Shown here in pieces: positions 36,782 to 53,831 of a stretch of DNA of 64,000 nucleotides; the first letter of the stretch is position 1, and the number at the start of each line of letters is the position of its first letter. Source of the DNA: Microvirga tunisiensis (GTDB lineage Bacteria; Pseudomonadota; Alphaproteobacteria; Rhizobiales; Beijerinckiaceae); NCBI RefSeq assembly GCF_009296175.1, contig NZ_VOSK01000011.1:1-64000 (forward strand). Direction: 5' to 3'. The notes under the pieces are model-generated. The model made no database searches, was not told the DNA's origin, and saw nothing but the letters and a program-made list of their open reading frames with translations. The translations under genes and the position numbers were made by a program.

Positions 36782-37648
36782 TCACGCCGCCGCAGCCGAG
36801 GCGGCGGTCGCCCGGTTTTCCATGACGATCATACCTGCCCCCGTCATGGAAGCCGGCACGAAATAATGTTTGTGCCGAACCAGCACGTCCGGGTCCATGG
36901 CGCCGCGCATGACGAGCCACATCATGAGTTCCGCACCCTCGCTGCCGAACATCTCGACATACTGCTCGCGCGACATGTTCGCGAGCTTGTCGGGATCGTT
37001 GGCGATATCGTTCAGGAAGGCCTGGTCGGCTTCCGGATTGACGAAGCCGGCCCGGGCGCCCTGGAGCTGGTGCGAGAGACCGCCGGTTCCAAGAATGACG
37101 AAGCGCTCGTCACTGTCATAGCTTTCGATGGCCTGGCGCAGAACGCGGCCCATCTCATAGCAGCGGCTCGGAAGAGGAATCGGATACTGGATGACGTTGA
37201 CGAAGATCGGGACGACCTTCACCGGCCATTCCTCGGGCTTGCCCCAGAACAGCTCCATCGGAACCTGCAGCCCATGATCGACCTCGATCTCCTGGCAGAT
37301 CATCGGATCGAACCGGTTCTCGACGAGTTTGTCGATGAAGTGCCATGAAAAGTCGACGGCTCCCTTGAACGGAGCAATGGCGCGTGGTCCCCACCCCTCG
37401 TCGACCGGGCGGTACTCCTCCGCGCACCCCACGGCGAAGGTCGGCACCTTGTCGAGGAAGAACGTGTTGCCGTGATCGTTGAAGATCACCACAGCCACGT
37501 CGGGTTTGTTCTCTTTCACCCATTCTTGACCTGGGATGTAGCCGTCGAAGAACGGTTTCCAGTCGGGCGTATCGCGCAGCCCCTTGTCGAGAGCGGCACT
37601 GATGGAGGGAACATGGGACGTTCCGAGGCCCCCGATGAGCTTTGCCAT
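36782..37648 (-). CDS. ligB: protocatechuate 4,5-dioxygenase beta (catalytic) subunit
   Basis: A 288-residue class III extradiol dioxygenase (LigB superfamily). Metal-binding histidines are visible in LGTSHVPS and FNDHGNTFF, and an acidic ligand is in the EVDHGLQ region. It should cleave protocatechuate, gallate or 3-O-methylgallate between C4 and C5. The alpha subunit is supplied as the C-terminal domain of the gene directly upstream (2-bp gap). The length fits LigB alone, not the fused DesB form. Confidence 0.9.
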   Translation of the reverse strand: MAKLIGGLGTSHVPSISAALDKGLRDTPDWKPFFDGYIPGQEWVKENKPDVAVVIFNDHGNTFFLDKVPTFAVGCAEEYRPVDEGWGPRAIAPFKGAVDFSWHFIDKLVENRFDPMICQEIEVDHGLQVPMELFWGKPEEWPVKVVPIFVNVIQYPIPLPSRCYEMGRVLRQAIESYDSDERFVILGTGGLSHQLQGARAGFVNPEADQAFLNDIANDPDKLANMSREQYVEMFGSEGAELMMWLVMRGAMDPDVLVRHKHYFVPASMTGAGMIVMENRATAASAAAA

Positions 37649-37650
37649 TC

Positions 37651-38751
37651 TTATTTCTTCCCTAAACGATCCCGCAGGAAATCCGCGTGCTCCATTCCCG
37701 CCTGATGCGCGCCGATCTCCGTGATGCGAACCGGATCGACGGCCGAGATTTTGAGAATGAAGAAGAGGTTGCCGCCCAGACGCACCATCTCCCGCCAGTT
37801 GCGGCTCATCACGGCTTCCTTCTCCTCGGGCGTGAGGCCGAAGCGGTCGAGATAGGCGCTCTCGTTCTCCCGGAACGCCTCCCGATTGGCGGGAGTGCCG
37901 AGTCCCATGGCCATCTTGTTGATGCGGTATCCGCGAAGCGACCGCTTGCGATCGAACAGCGGCGTGTCCGGAATACGATCCGAGCTTGGGTCCTCGCCCA
38001 TCGGTTTCAACTCCCCAGTCGCGGCGCGATCTGCGCTCGTGTTGTCGTTCTTGAATCCGAGGAAGCGGAGCAAAGCCTCGGACACCTGCTCGGGCTGCTC
38101 CAGGAGGGACATGTGTCCGCTATCCTCGATCACGACGAGTTCGGCGTTCGGGATTACGGACGCCATCTCCTCATGTTGGGCGAGCGGGCTCCAGCGATCC
38201 TGACGCCCGACCATCACCAGGGTCGGGCAGGCGATGTTCGGAAGATGCGGCCGCACGTTCGGCCGGTTCAGGAGCGCCTGGATCTGCCTGTCATGCTGCT
38301 CGGGCGTAGCGCGCATGACCATGGCCTTGAGCGGAGCAAGCAGGGTCTGATCCTCGACCCGGCCTTCATGAAGCATCGGCGGCAGCCACCTGTCGGCGAG
38401 GGCTTCCATACCCTCGGCAAAGGCCAGATCGATCATGACCTGGCGCTTTGCTTCCTCCCCCTCCCGTCGAGCATCAACGCCCGTGTCGATCAGAGCGAGC
38501 TTCTCGATGCGCTCGGGAGCAAGACGCGCCATCTCCATGGCCACGCGTGCGCCCATCGAATGCCCGATTGCGATCAGAGTCCCGTCAGCGAGCGCCAGCG
38601 CGGAACGGGCCATGGCCTCGATGGAGGCGAGTTCCGAGAAATCCGCAATGCGGATGTCGGCATAGGGCTCGAGAGCCGTCCTTTGCGCCTCCCAGATGCT
38701 GGCATCGCAAAGGAGCCCCGGCAGCAATACGATGGTCGGCCTTTTGCTCAT
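37651..38751 (-). CDS. fusion protein: alpha/beta hydrolase + protocatechuate 4,5-dioxygenase alpha subunit (LigA)
   Basis: Residues 1-232 form an alpha/beta hydrolase with nucleophile Ser65 in GHSMG, Asp185 in GRQDRW and His213 in SGHMS, a complete triad. After a hydrophilic linker, residues 262-366 match LigA: LFDRKRSLRGYRINKMAMGL, NREAFRENESAYLDRFGLTPEEK and MVRLGGNLFFILKIS. LigA normally stands alone as a 110-140 residue subunit that shapes the LigB active site. Here it is covalently joined to a hydrolase that might release aromatic acids from esters or open a lactone product. The start ATG lies 49 bp from a conserved LysR-type operator. First gene of the operon. Confidence 0.9.
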   Translation of the reverse strand: MSKRPTIVLLPGLLCDASIWEAQRTALEPYADIRIADFSELASIEAMARSALALADGTLIAIGHSMGARVAMEMARLAPERIEKLALIDTGVDARREGEEAKRQVMIDLAFAEGMEALADRWLPPMLHEGRVEDQTLLAPLKAMVMRATPEQHDRQIQALLNRPNVRPHLPNIACPTLVMVGRQDRWSPLAQHEEMASVIPNAELVVIEDSGHMSLLEQPEQVSEALLRFLGFKNDNTSADRAATGELKPMGEDPSSDRIPDTPLFDRKRSLRGYRINKMAMGLGTPANREAFRENESAYLDRFGLTPEEKEAVMSRNWREMVRLGGNLFFILKISAVDPVRITEIGAHQAGMEHADFLRDRLGKK

Positions 38752-38800: not shown

Positions 38801-38849
38801 AGATGAAGCAAATGGTTTATTTTGAAGGATTGATGAAAATCCTTCATGA
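38801..38849. promoter_or_regulatory. LysR-type operator, copy 1 (for the hydrolase-LigA operon)
   Basis: One of three closely matching 49-bp elements. It has the shared block ATGAAGCAAATGGTTTATTT and the dyad ATGAAAATCCTTCAT, which fits T-N11-A. The dyad is distal and the shared block proximal to the gene at 38751, as expected of a recognition site and an activation site. Confidence 0.75.
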
Positions 38850-38858
38850 GCCTGACGG

Positions 38859-39842
38859 TTACTGCTTCGGAATACCGGCCTTTTCGATCACCGCCCGCCA
38901 TTTCTCGATATCAGAGCGAAGGCGCTCGCTCAGTTCGGCAGGAGTCTCGCTGCGGGCCTCGATGCCAAGATCGAGCAGGCGAGCCTTCACGTCGTCCGCC
39001 TTCAGAATGTCCTGCAGGGCCTTGTTCAGGGTGTCGATGATAGGCTGGGGCGTTCCCTTGGGGGCGAACAGGGCGTTCCACGATGTCACGTCGAAGCCCT
39101 CGATCCCGGACTCCCGCACGGTCGGAACGTCGGGCATGGCGGCGGAGCGGCGCGGCCCGGAGGACGCGATCGCCCTCACCTGCTTGCCCTCGAGCCCCGA
39201 CTTCACGGCCGCCTGGCTGTCGATGAGCAGATGGGTATCGTTCCTGAGCAGGGAGACCAGCGCATCGGGCGTGCTGCGGAACGGCACATGGACCAGATCG
39301 ACTCCTGCCTCCGACTTGAAGAGAACCGAGGAGAGGTGCTGGCTGCTGCCGACCGCGACCGTGGCGACGTTCAGCGTTCCTGGCTTGTCCTTCGCCTGCT
39401 GAAGGAAATCCTTGAGACTCTTGAAGTTCGAGTCCGCATTGACGACGAAGAGGAAGTCGAACGTGCCGAGGGTGGAAACCGGGACGAAGTCGGACTGCGG
39501 ATCGAACGGGAGCTTGGCGAAAAGCGGCACGCTGATCGCGGTGCCGTTCGTCAGCATGGTCAGGGTGTATCCATCAGGAGCGCCCGAGAGTGCGGCTCGG
39601 GCCGCCGTGATGCCGCCGGCTCCCGGCATGTTCTCGACGATGAAGCGCTGCCCGAGGTTCTCGCTCAGCTTTTCGGACACGATGCGGATCGTGATGTCGG
39701 CCACGCCGCCGGCTCCGAAGGGAACCACCACTTTCACGGGGCGCGTGGGATAAGCCGGCTGCGCCTGCACAGGAGCGGATGCTCCGAGGCCCGCCACCAT
39801 GGCGAGAGCCAGCAGAGATCGTCTCGTGACCGTTCCGAACAT
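38859..39842 (-). CDS. TctC/Bug-type solute-binding protein, second orphan copy
   Basis: The predicted 327-residue protein starts at the ATG at 39842, preceded by GGGAGAA. A signal peptide (RRSLLALAMVAGLGASAPVQAQ) leads to the Bug motifs KVVVPFGAGGVADITIRIV and VENMPGAGGITAA. As with the other copy, no TctAB genes are present. It follows the LigI gene by 67 bp in what is probably one operon. The open frame extends upstream to 40082, but that is ligI in another frame. Confidence 0.9.
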   Translation of the reverse strand: MFGTVTRRSLLALAMVAGLGASAPVQAQPAYPTRPVKVVVPFGAGGVADITIRIVSEKLSENLGQRFIVENMPGAGGITAARAALSGAPDGYTLTMLTNGTAISVPLFAKLPFDPQSDFVPVSTLGTFDFLFVVNADSNFKSLKDFLQQAKDKPGTLNVATVAVGSSQHLSSVLFKSEAGVDLVHVPFRSTPDALVSLLRNDTHLLIDSQAAVKSGLEGKQVRAIASSGPRRSAAMPDVPTVRESGIEGFDVTSWNALFAPKGTPQPIIDTLNKALQDILKADDVKARLLDLGIEARSETPAELSERLRSDIEKWRAVIEKAGIPKQ

Positions 39843-39909
39843 GATGTGTTTCTCCCTGATCATTTCATGTGCTGCATCGCCGCCGCCGGCAGGTCTCGTG
39901 TCGCGGCTT

Positions 39910-40857
39910 TCAATCCGCAAAGCGGAAAAGGCGCGCCGGGTTTTCGACGAGAAGCTTGTGCTGAACAGCCGGATCCGGCGCGTAGAGCGGGATGAGATCG
40001 ACCAGATCGCCATCATCGGGCATGACCGGCACGTTCGGGTGCGGCCAGTCCGTTCCCCACAGGACGCGATCCGGCGCCGCATCGATCAGGGCCTTGCCGA
40101 ACGGAGCGACATCGTGGAAGGGCGATCCCGCGCGTGAAATGCGCTCAGGGCAGGTAACCTTGACCCAGCACTTCTCATCGCTCCGCACCAGATCGAGCAA
40201 CGCCACGAAGGCAAGCTGATCGAGGCCGAGGCCCGCATCCACGACGCCCATGTGATCGAGCACGTATGGAACGGGCAGCGCCATCAGCCTGGGTCTGAAG
40301 TCGGGAAGCAAGGTTGCGGGAAGATAGAGATCCACGTGCCAGTCGAGGGCAGCAATGCGCTCCACGATCCTGTCGAAGGAGGACATGTCGGGCGCCTTGC
40401 CGAGACGCGGCAGGAAGGTGAAGCGGCATCCGGTCATGCCCGCGTCGGCAAGGCGCCGGAGATCCTGGTCGCTGAACGTCTCATCCACGTTCGCGACGCC
40501 CTTGTAACGCCCGTTGCTCTGGGCGATGGCATCGGTCACGACCCGGTTGTCGCGTCCATGGGGCGTCGCGTTGACGATCACCGCCCGCTCGACACCGAGA
40601 CGATTATGCAACGCGCGGAACATCTCCAAAGGCGCGTCCGGTGGCGTATAGGGCCGCTCCGGCACATAGGGATAGCGCTCGTTAGGCCCGAAGATGTGAC
40701 AATGGGTGTCGCAGGCCTTCGGCGGCAGCTTGAAGGATGGAACGTGCGGATCGGGATGCGGAGGCGGGATCGTCGGCGCTGACGTCGTTCTGATGCACTG
40801 ACCTTCATGGAACGGGTTTGGCCGCCCATGAAATGCTTCAGCATTAAAATGAAGCAA
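39910..40857 (-). CDS. ligI: 2-pyrone-4,6-dicarboxylate lactonase (amidohydrolase)
   Basis: The enzyme hydrolyses the pyrone dicarboxylate to 4-oxalomesaconate. The barrel begins at CDTHCHIFGP with the HxH metal pair. VNATPHGRDNR, YVLDHMG and WGTDWPHPN match the LigI subgroup of amidohydrolases. The start is a puzzle. The only canonical in-frame start is the TTG at 40857, used here as the outer limit, but it lies inside a LysR-type operator. An ATC codon at 40794-40792, 7 nt after AAGG, may be the real start and would give a protein of about 294 residues. Confidence 0.88.
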   Translation of the reverse strand: MLHFNAEAFHGRPNPFHEGQCIRTTSAPTIPPPHPDPHVPSFKLPPKACDTHCHIFGPNERYPYVPERPYTPPDAPLEMFRALHNRLGVERAVIVNATPHGRDNRVVTDAIAQSNGRYKGVANVDETFSDQDLRRLADAGMTGCRFTFLPRLGKAPDMSSFDRIVERIAALDWHVDLYLPATLLPDFRPRLMALPVPYVLDHMGVVDAGLGLDQLAFVALLDLVRSDEKCWVKVTCPERISRAGSPFHDVAPFGKALIDAAPDRVLWGTDWPHPNVPVMPDDGDLVDLIPLYAPDPAVQHKLLVENPARLFRFAD

Positions 40858-40895
40858 ATGGTTTGTTTTTGGCTATTAGTGAATATACTTCATAT
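40847..40895. promoter_or_regulatory. LysR-type operator, copy 2 (between ligI and the LysR gene)
   Basis: Second 49-bp element: ATGAAGCAAATGGTTTGTTT followed by the dyad GTGAATATACTTCAT. It lies between the divergent ligI and LysR genes, with the dyad nearer the regulator, so it could both activate ligI and autoregulate the LysR gene. Confidence 0.75.
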
Positions 40896-40932
40896 ATTCC
40901 GACGAACCGAGCCTTTGCGTCCCCTTGAGCGA

Positions 40933-41904
40933 ATGAACCCGATGCGCATCGACTTTCTCGGCCTCCACGCCTTCGTCGCCATTGCCGAGCGCGGCAGCTT
41001 CCAGCACGCGGCGGCGCATCTCAATCTGTCGCAGACGGCCCTCAGCCACCGGATCCGCAAGCTCGAAGAGGACCTCGGCGTGAAGCTTCTGTCCCGGACG
41101 ACCCGCGAGGTCTCGCTGACCCAGGCCGGCCTCAATCTTCTGCCCAAGGTGAAGGAGACCATCGAAAGCCTCGCGGGCTCCCTGGACGAGCTCCGCCATG
41201 AGGGGCGCAGCCGCCAGGAAACCTTGTCGATCGGATGCCTTCCCACCATTGCATCCGGCCGCCTACCCAAGGCGCTGCGACGCTTCCAGGAGCGGCATCC
41301 GGATGTGATGCTCCGGATCTACGACAACTCCGCGACCGAGATCAGCTCTCTCGTCCATGACGGCACAATAGCCTTCGGTATCACCCTCGTGGCGGCGCAC
41401 CGCTGGGATTTCGACATCGAGATGCTGATCAAGGACCCATTCACGCTCGTCTGCCCCGAGGACCACCCCCTGGCCGCACAATCGGACGTGAGCTGGTCCG
41501 ATCTCACGGAGGAGCCTCTGATCAGGATCAGTCTCCAGACAGGCAATCGGATCATCATCGACGATGCGCTCGGAAGCCGCCGGGAAGCATTGAGTTGGCG
41601 CTTCGAGGTCCAGCACATTCAGACGGCGGTCGCCCTCGTCCGAGCCGGAGTGGCGCTCACCGTTATTCCCAGTCTCGCCTTCGATACGGTCGACGAGCGC
41701 GGGCTCAAACTGATTCCCCTGCGCAACCCGAGCGTCACCCGTCAGCTCGGCATCATCTCGAAGCGAGGCACCCCTCTCTCGCCACTCGCCGACGAGTTGC
41801 GCAAGCTCATCGTGCAGACATTCGCCGAACCCAAGCACAGGTCCTCGGCGGGACGGATCGACAAACCAGGCGGCAGAATGAAAAAAATTCATCAAAGCCC
41901 ATAA
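40933..41904 (+). CDS. LysR-family regulator of the protocatechuate 4,5-cleavage genes
   Basis: A 323-residue regulator with the N-terminal winged helix-turn-helix (LHAFVAIAERGSFQHAAAHLNLSQTALSHRIRKLEEDLGVKLL) and a C-terminal periplasmic-binding-like effector domain from about residue 95. The ATG at 40933 was chosen because it places the helix-turn-helix at the usual position; the open frame starts at 40807 inside ligI. The last few codons (MKKIHQSP) lie within a third operator copy. It probably responds to a pathway intermediate and activates the three flanking transcripts. LigR and GalR have the same role in other bacteria. Confidence 0.92.
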   Translation: MNPMRIDFLGLHAFVAIAERGSFQHAAAHLNLSQTALSHRIRKLEEDLGVKLLSRTTREVSLTQAGLNLLPKVKETIESLAGSLDELRHEGRSRQETLSIGCLPTIASGRLPKALRRFQERHPDVMLRIYDNSATEISSLVHDGTIAFGITLVAAHRWDFDIEMLIKDPFTLVCPEDHPLAAQSDVSWSDLTEEPLIRISLQTGNRIIIDDALGSRREALSWRFEVQHIQTAVALVRAGVALTVIPSLAFDTVDERGLKLIPLRNPSVTRQLGIISKRGTPLSPLADELRKLIVQTFAEPKHRSSAGRIDKPGGRMKKIHQSP

Positions 41905-41924
41905 ATAAACCATTTGATGCACCC
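41876..41924. promoter_or_regulatory. LysR-type operator, copy 3 (in front of the oxalomesaconate genes)
   Basis: The same 49-bp element in opposite orientation: the dyad ATGAAAAAAATTCAT lies left and the AAATAAACCATTTGATGCA block lies right, so the order faces the rightward genes. The left half overlaps the 3' end of the LysR coding sequence. Confidence 0.75.
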
Positions 41925-42000
41925 ATACGGCTGATGCACCCTGCCGGCGATCCATTCACCAGCAGGTGGGAGACGGACCATTCAGCCTCGCATTCCTTGC

Positions 42001-43089
42001 ATGATCCTTCGGGGCGGCACCTCCAAGGGTGCCTATTTCCTGGCAGACGATCTTCCGTCCGATCCCGCGCAGCGTGACGCGCTTCTGCTGTCGATCATGG
42101 GATCGCCGGACCCGCGCCAGATCGACGGCATGGGCGGCGCTCATCCGCTCACGAGCAAGATCGCCATCGTGTCCAGGTCCAAGCGTCCGGATTGCGATGT
42201 GGACTTCCTCTTTGGCCAAGTTGTCGTCGACAAGCCCAAGGTGGACGTCACGCCGAATTGCGGAAACATCCTGGCCGGCATCGGGCCGTTCGCCATTGAG
42301 CGCGGCCTCGTCCCGGTTCAGGGTCCGGTCACGCAGGTGCGCGTCCATACGGTGAATACCGGAACGATTGCCGAACTGAGCGTCCAGACGCCTGGCGGTC
42401 ATGTGGCCTACGGTGGCGATGCCCGCATCGATGGCGTGCCGGGTACCGCCGCGCCCATCGCCGTCGAGTTCCTCGATGCCGCCGGCTCCGTCTGCGGCTC
42501 GCTCCTGCCGACGGGGAATGCCGTCGATCACGTCGCAGGTGTCGACGCGACCCTGATCGACAATGGCATGCCCGTCGTGGTGCTCGAGGCGGCTTCGGTC
42601 GGTCGAACCGGATACGAACCCCGCGACGTGCTCGACAAGGATACGGAACTGAAGGCGCGGCTCGAGGAAATCCGCCTCGAAGCGGGCAGGCTCATGGGGT
42701 TGGGCGATGTCTCATCCAAGGTCGTGCCCAAGATGGCGCTGGTCGCGCCGCCGCAAGCAGGCGGGCATGTCTGCACCCGCAGCTTCATTCCCCACGAATG
42801 CCACGCCTCCATCGGGGTCTTCGCCGCCGTGACGGTCGCCACCGCCTGCGTGCTGCCGGGATCTCCAGCGGCCCGTGTCTCCAAGATCCCGCCCGGACGC
42901 GAGAAGACGCTTTCGGTGGAGCACCCGACCGGTGAGTTCAGCGTCGTGATCGAAGTCGGCGGAACCGAAGAGAATCCGGTCGTGGAGAGGGCCGGTCTCC
43001 TGCGGACCGCGCGCCTGCTCTTCGAGGGCTATGCCTTCGCGCACGAAGCCCTGGCGCATTCGCTCGAGGCCGGCCGCGACGCCGCCTGA
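42001..43089 (+). CDS. galD: 4-oxalomesaconate tautomerase (PrpF/GalD family)
   Basis: At least 362 residues of a PrpF-fold isomerase that converts keto and enol forms of 4-oxalomesaconate. It has RGGTSKGAYFLADDLP at the N-terminus, NCGN (catalytic-Cys region) near residue 87, and a second Cys segment CHASIGVFAAVTVATA. The ATG at 42001 has no ribosome-binding sequence. The in-frame codons just upstream encode IQPRIPC, which fits the first strand of the family, and an ATT at 41980 follows GGGAG by 7 nt. Initiation at that ATT is therefore plausible. The first gene of the operon galD-galB-ligK-dehydrogenase. Confidence 0.9.
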   Translation: MILRGGTSKGAYFLADDLPSDPAQRDALLLSIMGSPDPRQIDGMGGAHPLTSKIAIVSRSKRPDCDVDFLFGQVVVDKPKVDVTPNCGNILAGIGPFAIERGLVPVQGPVTQVRVHTVNTGTIAELSVQTPGGHVAYGGDARIDGVPGTAAPIAVEFLDAAGSVCGSLLPTGNAVDHVAGVDATLIDNGMPVVVLEAASVGRTGYEPRDVLDKDTELKARLEEIRLEAGRLMGLGDVSSKVVPKMALVAPPQAGGHVCTRSFIPHECHASIGVFAAVTVATACVLPGSPAARVSKIPPGREKTLSVEHPTGEFSVVIEVGGTEENPVVERAGLLRTARLLFEGYAFAHEALAHSLEAGRDAA

Positions 43090-43119: not shown

Positions 43120-43842
43120 ATGACTCCTGGAAAGACCGGACTTGTCGTCACCGCCCATCCCGGCGACTTCGTGTGGCGCGCAGGCGGCGCCATCGCCCTG
43201 CATGCAAAGAAGGGCTATCGCATGAAGATCGTCTGCCTCTCCTTCGGCGAGCGCGGCGAGAGCCAGTGGGCCTGGAAGAAGGGTGACGTATCGCTCTCGG
43301 ACGTGAAGGCGCAGCGGCGCGAGGAGGCCGAGCGCGCCGCCGGGACGCTCGGAGCCGAGATCGAGTTCTTCGATGCCGGCGACTACCCCCTCCACACCAC
43401 ACCCGAGATGCTCGATCGCCTCGTCGACATCTACCGCGAGCTCAAGCCGTCCTTCGTGCTCACGCACTCTCTGGAGGATCCCTACAACGTGGACCATCCC
43501 GAGGCGACGCGCTTCGCCCAGGAAGCCCGCATCATCGCCCAGGCGGCCGGCCACAAGCCGAACCCGGACCTCGCCTACAACGCGCCGCCGGTGTTCCTGT
43601 TCGAGCCGCACCAGCCCGAGCAGTGCAACTACAAGCCCAACGTGATCCTGAACATCGACGATGTCTGGGAGACCAAGCGCAAAGCCTTCGAGATTCTCGC
43701 CGCCCAGAAGCACCTGTGGGAATACTACACCCGCGTGGCCCTGAACCGGGGCATGCAGGGCGGCCGCAATTCCGGCCGCGCCATGACCTATGGCGAAGCC
43801 TATCAGCGAATCTTCCCCCAGATCGTCGAGGAATTGGCATGA
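43120..43842 (+). CDS. galB: 4-oxalomesaconate hydratase (PIG-L/GalB type)
   Basis: The 240-residue protein belongs to the PIG-L/LmbE zinc-hydrolase fold, with [13 protein letters not shown] near the N-terminus and [14 protein letters not shown] in the middle supplying metal ligands. In Pseudomonas gallate catabolism a PIG-L protein (GalB) hydrates 4-oxalomesaconate to 4-carboxy-4-hydroxy-2-oxoadipate. The flanking tautomerase and aldolase genes support the same role here. Its stop overlaps the aldolase start (ATGA). Confidence 0.85.
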
Positions 43843-44531
43843 AGCCCGTCGTCGTCACCAACACGCCTCGCATCGACCGCTCAGTGGTCGACCGCCTCGC
43901 GGAACTCGGCACCGCGACGACCCATGAGGCCATGGGGCGCATCGGTCTCATGAAGCCCTACATGCGGCCGATCTGGGCGGGAGCGCAGGTGGCCGGCAGC
44001 GCCGTGACGGTGCTGGCCCAACCCGGCGACAACTGGATGATCCATGTCGCCGTCGAGCAGTGCCAGCCGGGCGACATTCTGGTCGTCGGCGTGACCACCG
44101 ATAATACGGATGGCATGTTCGGCGATCTGCTGGCCACGTCCCTGAAGGCCAGGGGTGTGGTCGGCCTCGTTATCGATGCCGGCGTCCGCGACGTGAAGAC
44201 CCTGACCGAAATGGGCTTTCCCGTTTGGTCCCGTGCCATTTCCGCAAAGGGAACGGTGAAGGCGACGCTCGGATCGGTCAATGTCCCGGTGGTCTGCGCA
44301 GGCGCTCTGGTGAAGCCCGGCGACATCGTCGTTGCCGATGACGACGGCGTCGTGGTGGTTCCGCGCAAGGAGGCTGAAGCCATTGCGGTCGCGGGCGAGG
44401 CCCGCGTCGCCAATGAAGGCTCGAAGCGCGAGACCCTCGCCTCGGGCGTTCTCGGCCTCGACCTCTACAACATGCGCGAGCCGCTGGCGAAGGCGGGTCT
44501 GACCTATGTCGAATACAAGGATGAGGACTGA
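43839..44531 (+). CDS. ligK: 4-carboxy-4-hydroxy-2-oxoadipate aldolase (RraA-like)
   Basis: A 230-residue class II aldolase of the RraA/HMG aldolase fold. It cleaves the hydroxyoxoadipate to pyruvate and oxaloacetate. Family residues are seen in [32 protein letters not shown] (Arg/Asp active-site pair) and [15 protein letters not shown]. The ATG at 43839 overlaps the hydratase stop; the open frame upstream is the hydratase gene in another frame. It completes the lower 4,5-cleavage pathway. Confidence 0.9.
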
Positions 44532-44567: not shown

Positions 44568-45386
44568 ATGAGCCTTGAGATTACCTTCATCGGCTATGGA
44601 GAAGTCGGACAGCTCTTCTCCCGTCAGCTCGCGACCAAACCGGGCGTGAGGATCACGGTCTATGACATCCTCTTCGACGATCCCCGGAAAGGATCGGAGC
44701 TGCGGCAGCGGGCGTCGGGGACCAGCGTTCATGCGGACGACAGCGTCGCCGATGCCTGCCGCGGAGCCGACATCGTGATCTCTGCCGTAACGGCTGATTC
44801 CGCCGTTACAGCGGCAGCACAAGCTGCCGCGCATCTCAGGCCGTCGCAGATCTATGTCGACCTCAACTCCGTCTCTCCCGCAACCAAGGAACAGGTGGCT
44901 GGTCCGGTCAGGCAAAGCGGCGCGGACTTCGTCGAATTTGCCGTCATGGCTCCTGTGAAGGAGCCTGGAATCGAGGTCCCGATCCTGAGCGGTGGCGAGC
45001 GGGCCGAAGAGGTCTCGGCTCGCCTGAACGAACTCGGCATGAAGATTACTCCGGTCAGCACTGGGATCGGAACGGCTTCCGCCACGAAGCTGTGCCGCAG
45101 CATCGTCATCAAAGGCATGGAGGCTCTCATGGTCGACTTCACGCTCGCATCGGAACGGGCCGGCGTTGCGCCTGCCGTCCTGGCGAGCCTGAAAGCCTCC
45201 TATCCCGGCATGGACTGGGAGAACGTGGCGAAGGTCATGATGTCCCGCGTCAGGCAGCACGGGGTCCGGCGCGCCGCGGAGATGCGGGAGGCCAGCCGGA
45301 TGATCGATGAACTGGGCCTCGACGGCTCTCTCGCCAATGCCATCGCCGACCGCCACGAGAGTTTTGCCAAGGCAAACGAGACGTAG
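44568..45386 (+). CDS. NAD(P)-dependent 3-hydroxyisobutyrate-dehydrogenase-like protein with DUF1932 domain
   Basis: The 272-residue protein has an N-terminal Rossmann fold (FIGYGEVGQL) of the 6-phosphogluconate dehydrogenase type and a C-terminal helical domain like DUF1932 (SATKLCRSIVIKGMEALMVDFTLASERAGV). It follows the aldolase by 36 bp in the same operon. LigC, the Gfo/Idh-type dehydrogenase that normally makes 2-pyrone-4,6-dicarboxylate, is absent from the window. This protein may replace it, or may act on a hydroxy acid formed in a side reaction. The activity is not known. Confidence 0.75.
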   Translation: MSLEITFIGYGEVGQLFSRQLATKPGVRITVYDILFDDPRKGSELRQRASGTSVHADDSVADACRGADIVISAVTADSAVTAAAQAAAHLRPSQIYVDLNSVSPATKEQVAGPVRQSGADFVEFAVMAPVKEPGIEVPILSGGERAEEVSARLNELGMKITPVSTGIGTASATKLCRSIVIKGMEALMVDFTLASERAGVAPAVLASLKASYPGMDWENVAKVMMSRVRQHGVRRAAEMREASRMIDELGLDGSLANAIADRHESFAKANET

Positions 45387-45570: not shown

Positions 45571-46779
<1,209 letters not shown>

Positions 46780-46885
46780 TCACTTCGGGACACGATGAAC
46801 CCCGCCCGCCGAACGCCCAATAGACAAAGCGAGCATCGGATTGGACAATTCGAACATTCCGCCGGACATAAAGGATAGGGCAGTC

Positions 46886-47779
46886 TTGGCCATCGGCAGC
46901 ATTCCGACTTACGCACTCTATGGAGAAACCGGGAACGATCCGACGGCGGACTGGGTCCATTGCGAGACCATCCAGATCCGCAGTCGCTTGCACAATTACA
47001 GGATTCTGCCCCATCGGCACGAGAAGCTGTTCCAGATCCTTCATCTGACCGGCGGCACGGCTGAGATCGTGGTCGATGGCCGGAGCATGCAGCTGACCGG
47101 ACCGTCCATCGTCACCCTGCCCTCGATGACGGTGCACGGCTACACGTTCTCGCCGAGCGTGCAGGGAATGGTGCTGACCCTGTTCGATAGCCGCCTGACT
47201 CATATTCTGGCGGCCATGGACGGCGTCCGAGAGACATTCCGATCCGTTCAGGTGATCAGCCTCCAGGACCACGAGGATGCCGCCCGCTCCTTGGTCGCCG
47301 ACATGGCCTCCCTTGCGGCCGAATTTTCTGGTCGCGGGTCCGGACGCCTTGAAGCCAAAGAGGCCCGCCTGATGCTCATACTGATCGCACTCCATCGGCT
47401 GCAGGGCTCGGGCCAGTCCGCCGGCAATCACGGTCCTGGGCGGAGGGCGCTTCAGCATGCCTTGCGTTTTCGGGAACTCGTCGACCGGGATTTCCGGAGC
47501 CATCATCCGATCGAGGTCTATGCCCGCAAGCTGGGCCTGACCTCACCCCACCTCAACCGCATCTGCCGGGAACATCTCGGCGACACGGCGCTCGGCATCG
47601 TTCATCAGCGGATCGTCCTTGAGGCCAAGCGCTACCTGACCTTCACCACGTTGAGCGCCAAGGAGATCGCCCTGTCGCTCGCGTTCGACGATCCAGCCTA
47701 TTTCGCTCGCTTCTTCAAACAGAAAACCGGACTTCCGCCCCTCGCCTTCCGGGCCATGCAGCAGAGCACGATGGCTTGA
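46886..47779 (+). CDS. AraC-family regulator (likely activator of pobA)
   Basis: A roughly 297-residue protein with an N-terminal cupin-like sensor (LPHRHEKLFQILHLTGGTAEIVVDG) and a C-terminal AraC double helix-turn-helix (YARKLGLTSPHLNRICREH and KEIALSLAFDDPAYFARFFKQKTG). The TTG at 46886 was chosen because AAGGATAGGG lies 5 bp upstream and the protein then begins LAIGSIPTYALYGE; the open frame starts at a TTG at 46841. Divergent position next to pobA suggests that it controls pobA in response to 4-hydroxybenzoate, as PobR/PobC proteins do. Confidence 0.88.
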   Translation: MAIGSIPTYALYGETGNDPTADWVHCETIQIRSRLHNYRILPHRHEKLFQILHLTGGTAEIVVDGRSMQLTGPSIVTLPSMTVHGYTFSPSVQGMVLTLFDSRLTHILAAMDGVRETFRSVQVISLQDHEDAARSLVADMASLAAEFSGRGSGRLEAKEARLMLILIALHRLQGSGQSAGNHGPGRRALQHALRFRELVDRDFRSHHPIEVYARKLGLTSPHLNRICREHLGDTALGIVHQRIVLEAKRYLTFTTLSAKEIALSLAFDDPAYFARFFKQKTGLPPLAFRAMQQSTMA

Positions 47780-47898
47780 ACCAGCCGGCGCATCGCGCGG
47801 AACCGGAGGTTCGCATCAACGATGCGCAACGGATGGATGGATCCGATGCGTTAGAACCCGGACTGGGTCATGGCGTTACCTGCATGAGGAGATACGCC

Positions 47899-48066
47899 AT
47901 GTCCGACACCGAGCGAAAGAACCCCGGCGACGAGGATGTGCCGGGCACCAAGCAAACGGGGGAGAACATCTGCCCGACCTGTCACGGATCCGGCAGCATC
48001 GGACAGAAGCCATGCCCGGATTGCGGCGGCTCCGGCCGGGTCACCGTTATCGTCGGAGACGCCTGA
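47899..48066 (+). CDS. small CxxCxGxG zinc-finger protein
   Basis: A 55-residue protein beginning MSDTERKNPGDEDVPG, preceded by GAGGAG at a spacing of 7. It holds two CxxCxGxG units (CPTCHGSGS and CPDCGGSGR) like half of the DnaJ zinc-finger region. The motif would bind one zinc ion. The open frame begins at 47776 but the strong ribosome site marks this start. The function is unknown; stand-alone proteins of this kind are found in several alphaproteobacteria. Confidence 0.75.
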   Translation: MSDTERKNPGDEDVPGTKQTGENICPTCHGSGSIGQKPCPDCGGSGRVTVIVGDA

Positions 48067-48072
48067 CGGAGG

Positions 48073-49140
48073 CTACTTTTCAGCCGCCTTCGAGGGTACG
48101 AAGCTCATGCTCGCAATCAGGCCGTGAGCCCTGCTCAAGGCTGCGGCTGAGGAGACCACCATCTGCGGCAGCACCATCCACTCGAGAGTCCAGGCCGCTC
48201 CGGAACGCTCGTTCTCATGCACCAAGGCTTGATGCAGGGTGCCCAGCATTCCGGCATTGAAGCGGGCGAGCGTCACCAGCACCTCTGCCGGAACCGGATT
48301 GGACTTGTGCGGCATGGCGGACGATCCGCCGCCCGATGCCAACCGAACCTCGCCGACCTCGTTCTGCGCCATCAGGGCGATATCCTGCCCGATCTTGCCC
48401 AGCGTGCCGGTGAGCAGCGAGAGGAAAGCGCCGAACTCGCCGATCCTGTCTCGCTGCGAATGCCAGGACGGGGCAAGACCGAGGCCGAGGATCTCGGCCA
48501 TGGCATCGGCCACCGCATCGCCATGACCTTTCAGCTCGCCGCGGGTCCCGATGGGGCCGCCGAGTTGGAGAACGAGCTGGCGCGGCGCGAGAGCCTGCAG
48601 GGCTTCCCTATGCCGCTCAAGGGGCTGAATCCAGGTATCGATCTTGTCGGCCGCGGAGAAAGGAAGCGCCTGCTGCATCCGGGTATGCGCCATGAGGCGC
48701 GCCGAGCCGTCCCGGCGCTTCAATCCGTCGAGGCTCTGGATCAGCGTATCGAGGCGATGGCCGAGAACCTCGATCACGCTCTTGAGACGCAGGACAAGAG
48801 CGGTGTCGATGATGTCCTGGCTGGTCGCTCCCAGGTGAACGGATTGGCCATGGGGTTCGCCAACGGTGGCGCGCAGCTGCTTGACGAAGTCCGGAACGAT
48901 CACGCCATCCCGAGCCAAGCCTTCGGCGAGCTTGGTCCAATCCGCTTGAAAGCTCTCGCAGACCTCGGCGATCCGGCGCGCGGCCTCCTCACCGATCAGT
49001 CCGGCCTTCGCCTCGGCCTCTGCAAGAGCGGCCTCGACCCGCAGCATGGCGGAGAGTTCGGCCTCGTTGGAAAAGAACGCCCCCACCTCCTCGTCACCGA
49101 CAAGGGCCTGCAGGATGGGAAATGGGAGCGTTTGTGTCAT
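48073..49140 (-). CDS. pcaB: 3-carboxy-cis,cis-muconate cycloisomerase
   Basis: The 355-residue enzyme of the fumarase/aspartase superfamily lactonises carboxymuconate, the second step of the 3,4-route. The signature GGGSSAMPHKSNPVPAEVL (fumarate-lyase motif) is in the middle-to-late part, with HLGATSQDIIDTA earlier. The ATG at 49140 follows GAGG by 6 nt. The protein is shorter than the 450-residue form of Pseudomonas, as is usual in Rhizobiales. Last gene of the liv-pca operon. Confidence 0.93.
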   Translation of the reverse strand: MTQTLPFPILQALVGDEEVGAFFSNEAELSAMLRVEAALAEAEAKAGLIGEEAARRIAEVCESFQADWTKLAEGLARDGVIVPDFVKQLRATVGEPHGQSVHLGATSQDIIDTALVLRLKSVIEVLGHRLDTLIQSLDGLKRRDGSARLMAHTRMQQALPFSAADKIDTWIQPLERHREALQALAPRQLVLQLGGPIGTRGELKGHGDAVADAMAEILGLGLAPSWHSQRDRIGEFGAFLSLLTGTLGKIGQDIALMAQNEVGEVRLASGGGSSAMPHKSNPVPAEVLVTLARFNAGMLGTLHQALVHENERSGAAWTLEWMVLPQMVVSSAAALSRAHGLIASMSFVPSKAAEK

Positions 49141-49153
49141 CACGAACCTCGCG

Positions 49154-50359
49154 TCAGACGGCCTCGAGGGCAATGGCGATACCCTGCCCGACGCCGATGC
49201 ACATGGTGGCGAGCGCGCGCTTCTTGCCCCGGAGCTTCAGCTCCAGCGCGGCGGTGCCAGTGATGCGCGCGCCCGACATGCCCAGCGGATGGCCGAGGGC
49301 GATGGCGCCGCCATTCGGGTTCACGTTCTCGGCATCTTCCGGAATGCCGAGCTCGCGGAGAACCGCGATGCCCTGGCTGGCGAAGGCTTCGTTCAGCTCC
49401 ACCACGTCGAAATCCGTCGGCTTGATGCCGAGACGAGCGCACAGCTTCTTCGTGGCGGGAGCCGGTCCGATGCCCATGATGCGCGGCGCGACACCGGCGG
49501 CGGCGCCCCCGATGACCCGGGCGATGGGCTCGAGCCCGAACTTCCGGACGGCCGCTTCAGAGGCGACGATCAGGGCGGCCGCGCCGTCATTGACGCCGGA
49601 GGCATTGCCCGCCGTCACCGTTCCGTCCTTGCGGAAGGGAGTCGGCAGCTTCGCCAGCTGCTCCAGGGTGGTGTCGCCACGGGGATGCTCGTCCCTGTCG
49701 ACGATGACCGGGTCGCCCTTCCGCTTCGGGATCGTGACCGGCACGATCTCCTGGGCGAGACGGCCGTTGGCCTGGGCCGCGGCCGCCTTGTGCTGCGAGC
49801 GCAGGGCGAACGCGTCCTGGTCCTCGCGCGAGACATGGAAGTCGGCCGCCACGTTCTCGCCGGTCTCCGGCATGGAATCGACGCCGTATTGGCTCTTGAT
49901 CAGCGGGTTGATGAAGCGCCAGCCGATGGTGGTGTCGTAAATCTCGGCATTGCGCGAGAACGCCGTATCGGCCTTGGGCATCACGAAGGGCGCGCGCGAC
50001 ATGGATTCGACGCCGCCCGCGATCATGATCTCCGCCTCGCCCGCCTTGATGGCGCGGGCCGCGGCGATGACCGCGTCCATGCCGGAGCCGCAGAGGCGGT
50101 TCATGGTCGTTCCGGGGATCGAACCGGGCAGGCCCGACAGCAGCACGGCCATGCGGGCCACGTTGCGGTTATCCTCACCCGCCTGGTTGGCGCAGCCGTA
50201 GATCACGTCGTCGACAGCCTCGAAATCGAGGTTCGGGAGACGCTCCCGGAGAGCCTTCAGCGGAACGGCCGCGAGGTCGTCGGCACGGACGCTGGAAAGA
50301 GAGCCGCCATAGCGGCCGATGGGTGTGCGCACATAGGCGCAGATATAGGCTTCACGCAT
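49154..50359 (-). CDS. pcaF: 3-oxoadipyl-CoA thiolase
   Basis: The 401-residue thiolase splits 3-oxoadipyl-CoA to succinyl-CoA and acetyl-CoA. Active-site Cys is in NRLCGSGMDA near residue 90; NEAFA, GGAIALGHPLGMSGAR and the final CIGVGQG Cys motif complete the site. One base separates it from pcaJ. It finishes the beta-ketoadipate pathway and feeds the TCA cycle. Confidence 0.95.
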   Translation of the reverse strand: MREAYICAYVRTPIGRYGGSLSSVRADDLAAVPLKALRERLPNLDFEAVDDVIYGCANQAGEDNRNVARMAVLLSGLPGSIPGTTMNRLCGSGMDAVIAAARAIKAGEAEIMIAGGVESMSRAPFVMPKADTAFSRNAEIYDTTIGWRFINPLIKSQYGVDSMPETGENVAADFHVSREDQDAFALRSQHKAAAAQANGRLAQEIVPVTIPKRKGDPVIVDRDEHPRGDTTLEQLAKLPTPFRKDGTVTAGNASGVNDGAAALIVASEAAVRKFGLEPIARVIGGAAAGVAPRIMGIGPAPATKKLCARLGIKPTDFDVVELNEAFASQGIAVLRELGIPEDAENVNPNGGAIALGHPLGMSGARITGTAALELKLRGKKRALATMCIGVGQGIAIALEAV

Positions 50360-50360
50360 C

Positions 50361-51149
50361 TTAAGAGCCCTTCTTGCCGCCGTGAGCTTTCTCGGTCCTG
50401 GCCTGAAGCTCGCGCAGGGTGGTGAGTTCGAGTTCGGATGGCGGAGGCGTCTCCTCGAGCCGCTCGGAGAATCGGACCTTCCAGCCGCAGGTTTCCTGCA
50501 CCTTATCCCGGGTCACGCCGCGATGCATCGACACGACGGTGAATTCCTTCGTCTCGGGATCCGGCTTCCAGATCGCCAGATCGGTGATCAGGAGCGTCGG
50601 ACCCTTGGTGGTGATGCCGAGGCGTTCGCGATGATTGCCGCCCTCGCCATGGCCGAAGGAGGTGTAGAAGTCGATCTTCTCCACCATGCCGCGGGTCGCC
50701 TGCTTCATGGTGATGAAGACCTGCCGGCAGGAGGTCGCGATCTCCGGCGCACCGCCGCCGCCGGGCAGGCGCACCTTCGGCTTGTGATAGTCGCCGATCA
50801 CGGTGGTGTTGATGTTGCCGAAGCGGTCGAGCTGGGCGGCGCCCAGAAAGCCGATCGAGATCCGTCCGCCCTGGAGCCAGTAGCGGAACATCTCCGGCAC
50901 CGACACCGTGGTCACGGCCGTCTCGCACAGCTCACCGTCGCCGATGGAGAGCGGCAGCACGTTCGGCGCCGTGCCGATGGTGCCGCTCTCGTAGATCAGG
51001 GTGATGTCGGGCGCATGGGTCAGACGGGCCACGTTGCAGGCGGCCGAAGGAGCGCCGATGCCGACGAAGCAGACGTCGTCGTTGGACAAGGCCCGCGCCG
51101 CCGCGATGGTCATCATCTCGTTGGGCGTGAAGTCTGAGAGGCTGGTCAT
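50361..51149 (-). CDS. pcaJ: 3-oxoadipate CoA-transferase subunit B
   Basis: The 262-residue beta subunit moves CoA from succinyl-CoA to 3-oxoadipate. It has the class I CoA-transferase beta-subunit pattern, with LIYESGTIG (catalytic Glu candidate) and LPGGGGAPEIATSC. It lies directly after pcaI (2-bp gap), forming the usual pcaIJ pair. Confidence 0.92.
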   Translation of the reverse strand: MTSLSDFTPNEMMTIAAARALSNDDVCFVGIGAPSAACNVARLTHAPDITLIYESGTIGTAPNVLPLSIGDGELCETAVTTVSVPEMFRYWLQGGRISIGFLGAAQLDRFGNINTTVIGDYHKPKVRLPGGGGAPEIATSCRQVFITMKQATRGMVEKIDFYTSFGHGEGGNHRERLGITTKGPTLLITDLAIWKPDPETKEFTVVSMHRGVTRDKVQETCGWKVRFSERLEETPPPSELELTTLRELQARTEKAHGGKKGS

Positions 51150-51151
51150 TC

Positions 51152-51997
51152 TTACAATCCCTTCACGCGGTCGGCGAACACCTCGGGACCCTTGTCGAGC
51201 ACGTTCTCGTTCATCCAGGCCGTGAAGAGGTCACGGTCCGCGGAGATCTTGTCCCATTCGAGATAGGCAGCGTTGTCGCGGTCGTAATAGCCGTGCGTGT
51301 AGGACGGATGGGCTCCGCCCGGCACGTGCACGATGGATGTCACCGTCCAATGCGGCAGTACACAGAGGTTGGGATGCAGATCGTCGAAATCCTCCACGAT
51401 CTCCTCGACCGTCACTACCGAGCGCTTGGCGGCCAGAACGGCCTCCTTCTGCACGCCGACGATGCCTTCCACCAGCACGTCCCCTCGCCTGCTGGCCTTC
51501 TGGGCATGGATGACGGCCACGTTCGGGCGATGCGCCGGCACGGCCGCGAGTTCCTCGCCCGTGAAGGGGCAGGTGACGCTCTTGATCGACGGATTGACGT
51601 CCTTGAGACCCGCTCCGCGATACCCGCGGAACACGGCGCAGGGCAGGCCCGCGGCTCCCGCCTCGTAGGCATTGGCCATGGCCGCATGGCTGTGCTCGAC
51701 CGTCTCGATGGCCCGTGGCCAGCTGTTCTCGATCGCGTCACGCATGCGGCGCAGCAGGCCGACGCCGGGATTGCCCGCGTAGGAGAAGATCACCTTCTTC
51801 ACGAGCCCCATGCCGATCATCTGGTCGTAGATGATGTCGGGGGTCATGCGGATCAGGGTGAGATCCTTGATCCCCTGCCGGATCACCTCATGGGCGGCCG
51901 CATGGGGAATGAGATGGGTGAACCCTTCGAAGGCGACGGTGTCGCCATCGCGCAGGTTCTCGGCAACGGCCTCCTTGAGGCTCTGGAACTTGGCCAT
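51152..51997 (-). CDS. pcaI: 3-oxoadipate CoA-transferase subunit A
   Basis: The 281-residue alpha subunit shows the CoA-transferase alpha pattern, with DGDTVAFEGFTH near the N-terminus and YAGNPGVGLLRRM as the CoA-binding glycine segment. Context upstream of pcaJ and pcaF in a pca operon supports 3-oxoadipate as substrate rather than another short-chain acid. Confidence 0.92.
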   Translation of the reverse strand: MAKFQSLKEAVAENLRDGDTVAFEGFTHLIPHAAAHEVIRQGIKDLTLIRMTPDIIYDQMIGMGLVKKVIFSYAGNPGVGLLRRMRDAIENSWPRAIETVEHSHAAMANAYEAGAAGLPCAVFRGYRGAGLKDVNPSIKSVTCPFTGEELAAVPAHRPNVAVIHAQKASRRGDVLVEGIVGVQKEAVLAAKRSVVTVEEIVEDFDDLHPNLCVLPHWTVTSIVHVPGGAHPSYTHGYYDRDNAAYLEWDKISADRDLFTAWMNENVLDKGPEVFADRVKGL

Positions 51998-52018
51998 GAT
52001 ATGCTTTCAGATCGACAA

Positions 52019-52645
52019 TCAGATATCGAAGAACACGGTTTCCTTCTCACCCTGCAGGTGGATGTCGAAGGTGTAGGTCGGCAATCCGTTCTCCTCGCCG
52101 CGAGAGGCCATGAGGGTCGGAATCCTCACCTTGCGGGCGATCTGCGCGAGGACAGGGCACTCCGCGTTGGCGGCTTCCTCGTCGGCGAAATAAAGGCGGG
52201 TGTGCAGGCCGATATTGATGCCACGGGCCACGATCCAGACCGTAATGTGCGGCGCCATCATGCGCCCGTCCTTGTAGGGCACGCGGCCGGGCTTGATGGT
52301 CTCGAACCGATATTCCCCGGTGGTGCCGTCGCACGGCTGGCGTCCCCAGCCGACGAAGTTGGGATCGGCTTTTCCGCGCGTCTCGGAGGGGCTGTTGTAG
52401 AGCCCTTCCGCATCCGCCTGCCAGATCTCCACGAGAGCATCTCTCAAAACATCGCCCGCTCCGTCGAAGATGCGGCCTTTGACGATGATGCGCTCGCCCT
52501 TGGTCTCCGGACCCACCAGCACCAGCCCGAGATCCTCGTTCCAGACGCCGGTGATCTCGACCCAGTTCGGGTTCGTGCCGATGTGAACGTAGGGACCCGC
52601 CGTCTGGGAGGGCGTCTCCTTCAGGAAATCAAGCTTCTGAACCAT
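52019..52645 (-). CDS. pcaG: protocatechuate 3,4-dioxygenase alpha subunit
   Basis: The 208-residue subunit of the intradiol dioxygenase has the beta-sandwich fold with LKETPSQTAGPYVHIG at the start and VEIWQADAEGLY, but lacks the iron-binding Tyr/His set, as alpha subunits do. The ATG at 52645 overlaps the pcaH stop by one base (TGATG). The open frame upstream, to 52930, is pcaH in another frame. Confidence 0.94.
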   Translation of the reverse strand: MVQKLDFLKETPSQTAGPYVHIGTNPNWVEITGVWNEDLGLVLVGPETKGERIIVKGRIFDGAGDVLRDALVEIWQADAEGLYNSPSETRGKADPNFVGWGRQPCDGTTGEYRFETIKPGRVPYKDGRMMAPHITVWIVARGINIGLHTRLYFADEEAANAECPVLAQIARKVRIPTLMASRGEENGLPTYTFDIHLQGEKETVFFDI

Positions 52646-53370
52646 CAGTTCCCCTCCATGCGGTTCTCGAACATGGTCGAGCGCCGGCCGCGCAGGACGA
52701 TATCGAATTTGTAGGCGAGCGAATCCATCGGCAGGGTGTTCTGCCGGTCGAGCGCCGCGATCAGCTGCTCGACGGCGGCCTTGTCGGGCACCGTCATGGC
52801 GATCGGGTCCTGCCAGATCATCGGGTCGCCCTCGAAGTAGCATTGGGTGATCAGGCGCTGCGCGAAGGCATGCCCGAAAATCGAGAAGTGGATATGGGCG
52901 GGCCGCCAGTCGTTCACGCCGTTCGGCCACGGATAGGCGCCGGGCTTGATGGTGCGGAACCAGTAGCGTCCCTCCTCGTCCGTGATCATGCGTCCGCAGC
53001 CGCCGAAATTCGGGTCGATGGCCGCGAGATAGGTTTCCTTCTTGTGCCGGTAGCGCCCGCCGGCATTGGCCTGCCAGAACTCGACGAGAGCACCGGGAAC
53101 CGGCCGGGCGTTCTCGTCCAGCACGCGGCCGTAGACGATCATCCGCTGGCCGATGGCCTCGCCGGTCTGCGCGTAGTTGCGGATGAGATCGTTGTCCAAC
53201 GGGCCGATCTTGGAATGCCCGAAGACCGGACCGGTCATCTCCGAAAGCGTGTTCTCGAGCGAGATGAGCGGCTGCTGCGGCGATCGGAGCACCGACGTCT
53301 TGTAGGAAGGCGTGAAGGCCGGCGGATGCCAGGTCCTGTCACGCTGAAAATATTGGCCATTATCCGTCAT
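52645..53370 (-). CDS. pcaH: protocatechuate 3,4-dioxygenase beta subunit
   Basis: The 241-residue catalytic subunit opens protocatechuate between the hydroxyls to 3-carboxymuconate. The Fe(III) ligands are visible: a Tyr in GGRYRHK, a Tyr in GAYPWPNG and the two His of RPAHIHFS. It is followed by pcaG and lies 53 bp downstream of pcaC. Confidence 0.95.
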
Positions 53371-53423
53371 GTTTCCTCCTTCCGGACCGTGCCTTGGCAG
53401 ACCCGGCTCCCATGTCTCCAGCC

Positions 53424-53831
53424 CTACCGCCCCTGATCCGGAGCGGCTTCCATTTCGGCAAATGTCTTCTTGACGATCTTGATGGCGTGGTTGGCCGCCG
53501 GCACGCCCGCATAGACGGCCACGTGCAGCAACGCCTCCTTGATGTCCTCCTTGGTCGCGCCCGTGTTGCGGGTCGCGCGGACATGCATGGCGACCTCATC
53601 GTCCTGCCCAAGCGCCGCCAGGAGCGCGATGGTCACGATGGAGCGCTCGCGCTTGGTGAAGCCGGGACGTGACCACACCGAGCCCCAGGCCCCTTCGGTG
53701 ATGAAGGTCTGGAAATCGGAGTCGAACTCCGTCAGCTGCGCGGTCGCCCGGTCCACATGGGCGTCGCCGAGCACCTGACGGCGCACCGCCATGCCCGCCT
53801 TGTAACGTTCGTTTTGCTCGTTTTCAGACAA
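53424..53831 (-). CDS. pcaC: 4-carboxymuconolactone decarboxylase
   Basis: The 135-residue protein is a stand-alone PcaC of the AhpD-like fold. It has [50 protein letters not shown] family sequence, broken here only for length, with the conserved His of MHVRA. The TTG at 53831 is the likely start because AGGAGG lies 6 nt upstream inside the end of pcaD, which overlaps it by 8 bp. It is not fused to PcaD, unlike PcaL proteins. Confidence 0.93.

Follow-up and report, generated by a model that had tools for sequence, protein, structure and literature searches.

Which regulator controls the aromatic-acid catabolic genes grouped around a LysR-type regulator gene (lysR) in Microvirga tunisiensis, and through which DNA sites? 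The locus lies within a stretch of 64,000 nt (assembly GCF_009296175.1, contig NZ_VOSK01000011.1, positions 1 to 64,000), here called the window, in which three similar 49-bp elements at 38801-38849, 40847-40895 and 41876-41924 (copies 1, 2 and 3) precede a hydrolase-LigA fusion gene, a ligI-like gene and galD, respectively. A first-pass annotation had interpreted them as LysR-type operators of one protocatechuate 4,5-cleavage regulon. As far as sequence allows, our analysis confirms both the observation and the regulon: the elements are very probably operators of the neighbouring LysR protein, which would govern a regulon of three units, most likely as an activator. This reading is strongly supported because motif and regulator co-occur, the elements stand out in phylogenetic footprinting, synteny extends across genera, and loci with a displaced regulator retain the sites. 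The pathway label, in contrast, is only partly supported. The sites, their geometry, their conservation and their linkage to this LysR are directly observed.

Architecture and rarity of the three elements

The elements align over 49 bp without gaps, as annotated, with 28 of 49 positions identical in all three and 36, 33 and 32 of 49 identical in the pairwise comparisons. Read toward the gene, each copy consists of the dyad ATGAA-N5-TTCAT or a one-base variant of it (the dyad of copy 2 ends in TTCAC), an 18-nt spacer ending in AAAC, the hexamer CATTTG and a further half-site, which is CTTCAT in copies 1 and 2 and ATGCAC in copy 3. The dyad is thus distal and the block proximal with respect to each catabolic gene, in agreement with the earlier description, and the T-N11-A core claimed for the dyad is found in all three copies, so that it fits a LysR recognition binding site (RBS). 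A second, gene-proximal site, formed by AAACCATTTG plus the half-site, follows at constant spacing in all three copies; its centre lies about 28-30 bp nearer the gene than that of the dyad, in copies 1 and 2 it contains the right half-site a second time, and it fits an activation binding site (ABS). The predicted operator parts are as follows, with counts referring to the 22 Microvirga genomes that carry a lysR orthologue:

38803..38818, minus strand: copy 1, predicted ABS, AAACCATTTG block plus CTTCAT half-site
38833..38847, minus strand: copy 1, predicted RBS dyad (ATGAA-N5-TTCAT, T-N11-A); in 8/22 genomes
40849..40864, minus strand: copy 2, predicted ABS, AAACCATTTG block plus CTTCAT half-site
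40879..40893, minus strand: copy 2, predicted RBS dyad, between the ligI-like gene and lysR; in 22/22 genomes
41878..41892, plus strand: copy 3, predicted RBS dyad, within the last lysR codons; in 22/22 genomes, more degenerate after lysR in other genera
41907..41922, plus strand: copy 3, predicted ABS before galD, AAACCATTTG block plus ATGCAC half-site

Allowing at most 3 mismatches, the composite pattern matched the window at these three places alone (cores at 38809-38847(+), 40855-40893(+) and 41878-41916(-)) and never in 100 shuffles. The genome-wide motif search proposed in the first-pass annotation returned the same three elements from the organism's own assembly (8.83 Mb, 1022 contigs), and hence no crowd of unrelated copies, while a control with the pattern read backward gave no match. 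Taken singly, the 10-bp block (3 observed versus 1.28 expected with 1 mismatch) and the dyad (3 versus 3.45, likewise with 1 mismatch) occur near chance frequency. This implies that the significance of the elements rests on their fixed combination.

Past copy 3, about 14 bp beyond CATTTG, a block CTGATGCACCCT (41931-41942) shows strong conservation and is possibly part of the promoter.

Linkage of the elements to LysR within Microvirga

We searched 48 Microvirga genomes for the LysR orthologue and the elements. An orthologue with at least 81% identity was found in 22 genomes (the copy in G015 is interrupted), and all 22 carry at least two elements. By comparison, only 3 of the 26 genomes lacking the orthologue contained an element, a single weak one in each case (G004, G064, G007), and in G004 merely fragments of LysR remain. 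This co-occurrence corresponds to a Fisher p of 8e-11, a value that ignores relatedness among the genomes. In the genome of M. tunisiensis itself, this LysR is the sole match at E 1e-30 or better.

Phylogenetic footprinting points in the same direction, since element columns average 1.6-1.8 bits compared with 0.4-0.8 bits in the preceding 40 bp. Copies 2 and 3 accompany every LysR-bearing genome (copy 2 in degenerate form in G068). A single Microvirga clade probably acquired copy 1; in five loci without it (L144, L145, L146, L149, L029) the TctC-type gene and the hydrolase gene are about 60 bp apart. The sites also persist where the first gene differs, as in loci in which galD (L141, L142, L144) or ligI (L147, L148, L150, L028) was not found. 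Shuffles, assembly search, co-occurrence within the genus and footprint together rule out chance similarity of the elements.

Conservation in other genera and in genomes with lysR away from galD

To extend the comparison, 77 of 80 galD loci (L031-L107) were scanned, 21 of which contained a LysR hit with at least 50% identity. The regions flanking LysR were analysed in 19 of these 21; L051 was excluded as Microvirga, and L063 since the contig ends within its LysR hit. In a stretch of 190 bp spanning the LysR end and the sequence past it, CATTTG occurred in 18 of the 19 loci; across 300 draws of random windows, no 6-mer was shared by more than 14 of 19. In all 18 of these sites TG precedes CATTTG by exactly 32 bp, and the matching CA of the second dyad half is present in 12. 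Moreover, a weight matrix built from 52 Microvirga sites only ranked the post-LysR site first in its locus in 13 of the 19 loci and among the top four in all 19. Most of these loci continue with galD, the PIG-L family gene and ligK, and the NAD-binding gene often heads the series. Being the most widely shared, copy 3 looks like the oldest of the three.

In L041-L043 a divergent operator pair lies before galD, and no LysR hit at 1e-8 was obtained in the 13-kb locus; all three genomes carry a LysR orthologue of 56-58% identity elsewhere, with a site scoring 13-15 at its 3' end. The search for distant LysR genes covered 12 genomes whose galD loci have no local one. Among the nine further genomes, only G083 had a close LysR (54%), and its galD locus (L058) contains a recognisable but weaker site (score -13.7); the best hits in the other eight did not exceed 38%. 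Across the 43 loci without local LysR the median best matrix score was -30.7, with a single positive value of 6.3 (L031).

A predicted operator within the 3' end of lysR

The first-pass annotation had noted that copy 3 overlaps the end of the LysR coding sequence. Indeed, copy 3 covers the final 29 bp of lysR (stop codon at 41902-41904), and the DNA encoding the tail MKKIHQSP is therefore operator DNA. Of 41 loci, 29 (18 of 22 in Microvirga and 11 of 19 others) have the LysR stop codon either within the element or abutting its first base.

Since the tail KKIHQSP/KP recurs among many Microvirga proteins, the conservation of copy 3 might be ascribed to a conserved C-terminal tail of LysR with no operator involved. 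However, Microvirga species translate the element in three different frames (offsets of the stop: -26 and -17; -16; -3), giving proteins that end in MKKIHQSP or KKIH, proteins that end in SEKNS, or a stop inside ATGAA. The same DNA in three frames implies a constraint on the DNA and not on the tail peptide, and copies 1 and 2 lie outside lysR. A conserved protein tail as the cause of copy 3 is therefore ruled out by the reading frames, and the chance that it explains the site is practically negligible.

The operator is kept at the lysR 3' end across families and orders despite the change of frame, and even away from galD. Tentatively, regulator and operator might thus form one inherited cassette in which the operator occupies the lysR 3' end and often includes its stop codon, although we regard this extension as rather unlikely compared with the regulon itself.

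Regulator specificity

The helix SQTALSHRIRKLE is largely retained in operator-bearing LysR proteins; paralogues of 38-41% identity read SQPALSRRIQ(K/R)LE. No strict match to the element was found on either strand in 11 loci of these paralogues. Together with the looser sites described below, this shows that the bipartite layout extends beyond this regulator, while the exact sequence goes with it.

Weak hits of the form CAAATGAATTCTTTACAAGG... were additionally observed within the genus; in both loci inspected (L153 and L154) they lie beside another LysR gene, and others occur in G006, G011 and G007. This second LysR-type gene is adjacent to a 2-hydroxyacid dehydrogenase gene and has two flanking operator-like sites (scores -6.5 to 7.5), one of them directly past its 3' end:

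L153, 5604-5648 and 6577-6621: sites flanking the second LysR-type gene
L154, 4549-4593 and 5522-5566: sites flanking the second LysR-type gene

Weighing the evidence for a LysR regulon

Several observations weigh against the assignment of the elements to this regulator or against their delimitation. Looser sites of the same shape (ATG-N9-half, 18-nt spacer, CATTT) occur at the 5' end of the paralogues in 7 of the 11 loci (L020, L021, L022, L025, L026, L027, L163; in L022 also at the 3' end), so that related regulators may read related sites. The Bosea locus L031 gave its matrix hit of 6.3 in a genome whose best LysR hit is 35%. Among the other genera, L049 has no CATTTG after LysR, and the CA of the second dyad half is missing in 6 of 18 sites. 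Conservation does not stop at the element, as the 16 bp past it, which contain the last half-site, still average 1.0-1.7 bits, and inspection by eye downstream of the elements revealed no convincing -10/-35 boxes. Furthermore, many of the sampled species are related, so the genome counts are not independent, and the assembly of M. tunisiensis, with its 1022 contigs and 8.78% contamination, is such that further sites may escape.

Some of these observations would also suit a different explanation, namely that the elements are operators of another transcription factor encoded elsewhere. The related sites flanking the different LysR-type gene in L153 and L154, together with the looser sites beside the paralogues, indicate that this shape of motif is not confined to a single protein. 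Nevertheless, the presence of sites tracks this LysR across the 48 genomes and also where lysR lies elsewhere, and at E 1e-30 no further LysR of this group turns up in the organism's own genome, which makes an unlinked factor very unlikely. We consequently favour the neighbouring LysR as the protein that would read all three elements.

Genes of the three units

The genes at the locus, assigned by family searches, are listed below.

36782..37648, minus strand: LigB, catalytic subunit of class III extradiol dioxygenase
37651..38751, minus strand: alpha/beta hydrolase fused to LigA (extradiol dioxygenase small subunit), first gene after copy 1
39910..40788, minus strand: LigI-like amidohydrolase (Amidohydro_2), candidate 2-pyrone-4,6-dicarboxylate hydrolase, first gene after copy 2
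40942..41904, plus strand: LysR-type regulator (Pfam HTH_1 and LysR_substrate); alternative start ATG at 40933
41980..43089, plus strand: galD, 4-oxalomesaconate tautomerase, probable ATT start (NF033377, 540 bits, cut-off 440), first gene after copy 3
43120..43842, plus strand: PIG-L family gene, candidate galB
43839..44531, plus strand: ligK/galC, 4-carboxy-4-hydroxy-2-oxoadipate aldolase (TIGR02798 above cut-off)
44568..45386, plus strand: NAD-binding/DUF1932 dehydrogenase-like gene, end of the galD operon

As a candidate galB, the PIG-L family gene at 43120..43842 would encode 4-oxalomesaconate (OMA) hydratase. The NAD-binding/DUF1932 gene occurs in galD clusters of many relatives. The LigI-like protein scores below the cut-off of its nearest NCBIfam model (SlmHylase), and it is about 48-52% identical to amidohydrolases encoded beside galD in other genera (6 of 28 matches listed).

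The distances from the 49-bp element to the probable start codon are 49 bp (hydrolase ATG at 38751), 58 bp (ligI) and 55 bp (galD ATT at 41980). Of the gaps originally given as 49, about 52 and about 55 bp, the first and the last thus hold, whereas that of ligI becomes 58 bp by the start codon of its relatives; the shorter value would suit an in-frame ATC. At 40788-40786 on the minus strand, M. tunisiensis has ACG where 13 of 13 matched Microvirga relatives have ATG, possibly a start loss or a sequence error. For galD, an ATT start preceded by a GGGAG-like ribosome site was observed in 17 of 17 matched Microvirga loci (region 41980-42003), loci being matched by a pattern that permits any ATN at that codon, and third-position changes were seen downstream of the ATT. 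In other genera the codon at or near this position is mostly ATG, in a few cases GTG, and ATC in Telmatospirillum (L046). The tblastn match to the hydrolase-LigA protein is a single piece in the seven other loci with copy 1 (L137-L143), whereas in Telmatospirillum and in six other Microvirga loci it is split into two pieces that lie in different frames.

Gallate or protocatechuate as substrate

The presence of LigA and LigB domains identifies a LigAB-type ring-cleaving dioxygenase, which does not by itself fix the substrate. The first-pass annotation had named protocatechuate and suggested a distant ligC as a further regulon member. No clear LigC orthologue was detected in the genome of M. tunisiensis (the two best hits had 29% and 27% identity across some 229 residues) with a query from the sphingomonad locus L105 that was picked by its position next to ligB and whose family is unconfirmed. 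As the assembly also contains no fourth site, a distant ligC was discarded as a member. Adjoining the locus, 45571-54618 encodes pobA, pcaB, F, G, H and D and two CoA-transferase genes, which constitute protocatechuate 3,4-cleavage. Beyond the lig/gal locus, a second pattern applied across the genus found sites only in G032, in G061 and at the second LysR gene in G065. The operator in G032 (score 36.0; L155 6204-6248) lies ahead of a gene of the tannase/feruloyl esterase family; the one in G061 is weaker (16.7; L156 6269) and lies ahead of a short stretch matching the N-terminal part of that gene.

With no clear LigC, the adjoining 3,4-cleavage genes and the operators at tannase-family genes, gallate appears at least as likely as protocatechuate. 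We therefore give even weight to the possibility that the same operators and regulator, with the proposed regulon left intact, serve the breakdown of gallate (or 3-O-methylgallate/syringate) via 4-oxalomesaconate. The most widely shared target, galD-PIG-L-ligK, comprises lower gallate steps, in line with this possibility. On the other hand, LigB passes a general model of class III extradiol enzymes and stays under the cut-off for gallate dioxygenase, the LigI-like gene suits protocatechuate too, a very divergent LigC could escape the search, and the tannase family also includes feruloyl esterases. Tannase genes of M. tunisiensis itself were rejected as regulon members, since no site was present in the loci around the tannase hits.

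Comparison with known LysR-type regulators

In Pseudomonas putida KT2440, the LysR-type activator GalR controls gallate genes including galB, galC and galD, and it is reported to have a predicted T-N11-A RBS and an ABS in which the right half of the dyad recurs, both within a conserved region of about 40 nt located at -62 to -97 relative to the galB start; 4-oxalomesaconate is the reported effector (PMC9942251). Compared with the site given there, the present elements occupy a similar place relative to the gene but differ in the half-site, which is AACGCAT for GalR and TTCAT here. In the Pseudomonas galD loci L082 and L107 the best LysR hit reached 34-36% over about 74 N-terminal residues, the hits being unconfirmed as GalR, and neither attained the at least 60% identity over the protein that the same study set for GalR orthologues.

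In Sphingobium SYK-6 and Novosphingobium aromaticivorans, the LysR-type activator LigR acts on ligKUI and ligJABC-type operons and binds at about -50 to -85 from the transcription start through the reported core TT-N-GC-N6-TTAT (PMC12710314). This core, so described, is absent from the three elements when compared by eye, ATGAA-N5-TTCAT being found instead. The LysR hits in sphingomonad galD loci, presumed to be LigR, are partial and only 27-31% identical, although these loci share a gene of the same NAD-binding family (homologues about 39% identical). PcaQ of the beta-ketoadipate pathway is likewise a LysR family member, and the PcaQ model gave 114 against a cut-off of 303.8.

The low identities and the PcaQ score below cut-off do not support an assignment of the regulator to LigR, GalR or PcaQ. 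It appears to work like GalR and LigR, but it is distant from the LysR hits in the loci of both groups and would use another site. No paper on this regulator was found in the open PubMed Central literature, the sole source searched, which makes for a weak absence.

Proposed mechanism and implications

We infer that LysR physically binds the elements as a tetramer, and that it activates rather than represses in response to an inducer. Each operator would combine a high-affinity recognition dyad with an activation site nearer the gene. The LysR tetramer would occupy both sites, and the inducer would shift it onto the activation site next to the -35 region, where LysR would recruit RNA polymerase. 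In this way three units would be switched on: hydrolase-LigA/LigB, the ligI-like gene with the TctC-type gene, and galD/PIG-L/ligK/NAD-binding gene. In addition, copy 2 may mediate feedback on lysR. By analogy with GalR and LigR, our guess for the inducer is 4-oxalomesaconate or gallate/protocatechuate.

These data provide a testable operator and regulon for an aromatic-acid LysR in Hyphomicrobiales and some Rhodospirillales that would be distinct from LigR and GalR. The operator may be used to locate pathway members, as illustrated by the tannase-family gene in one relative and the piece of such a gene in another, and the loci form a natural series in which operators were apparently gained, kept or lost as genes were swapped. 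In copy 3, moreover, regulatory DNA is built into the terminal part of the gene for the regulator itself. If regulator and operator are indeed inherited as one cassette, LysR and polymerase on copy 3 could slow or end transcription of lysR at the same time as they start that of the downstream operon. Since a different LysR gene in the genus has two such sites beside it and more distant paralogues have a related bipartite site at one end, the arrangement may be common to this LysR group in general.

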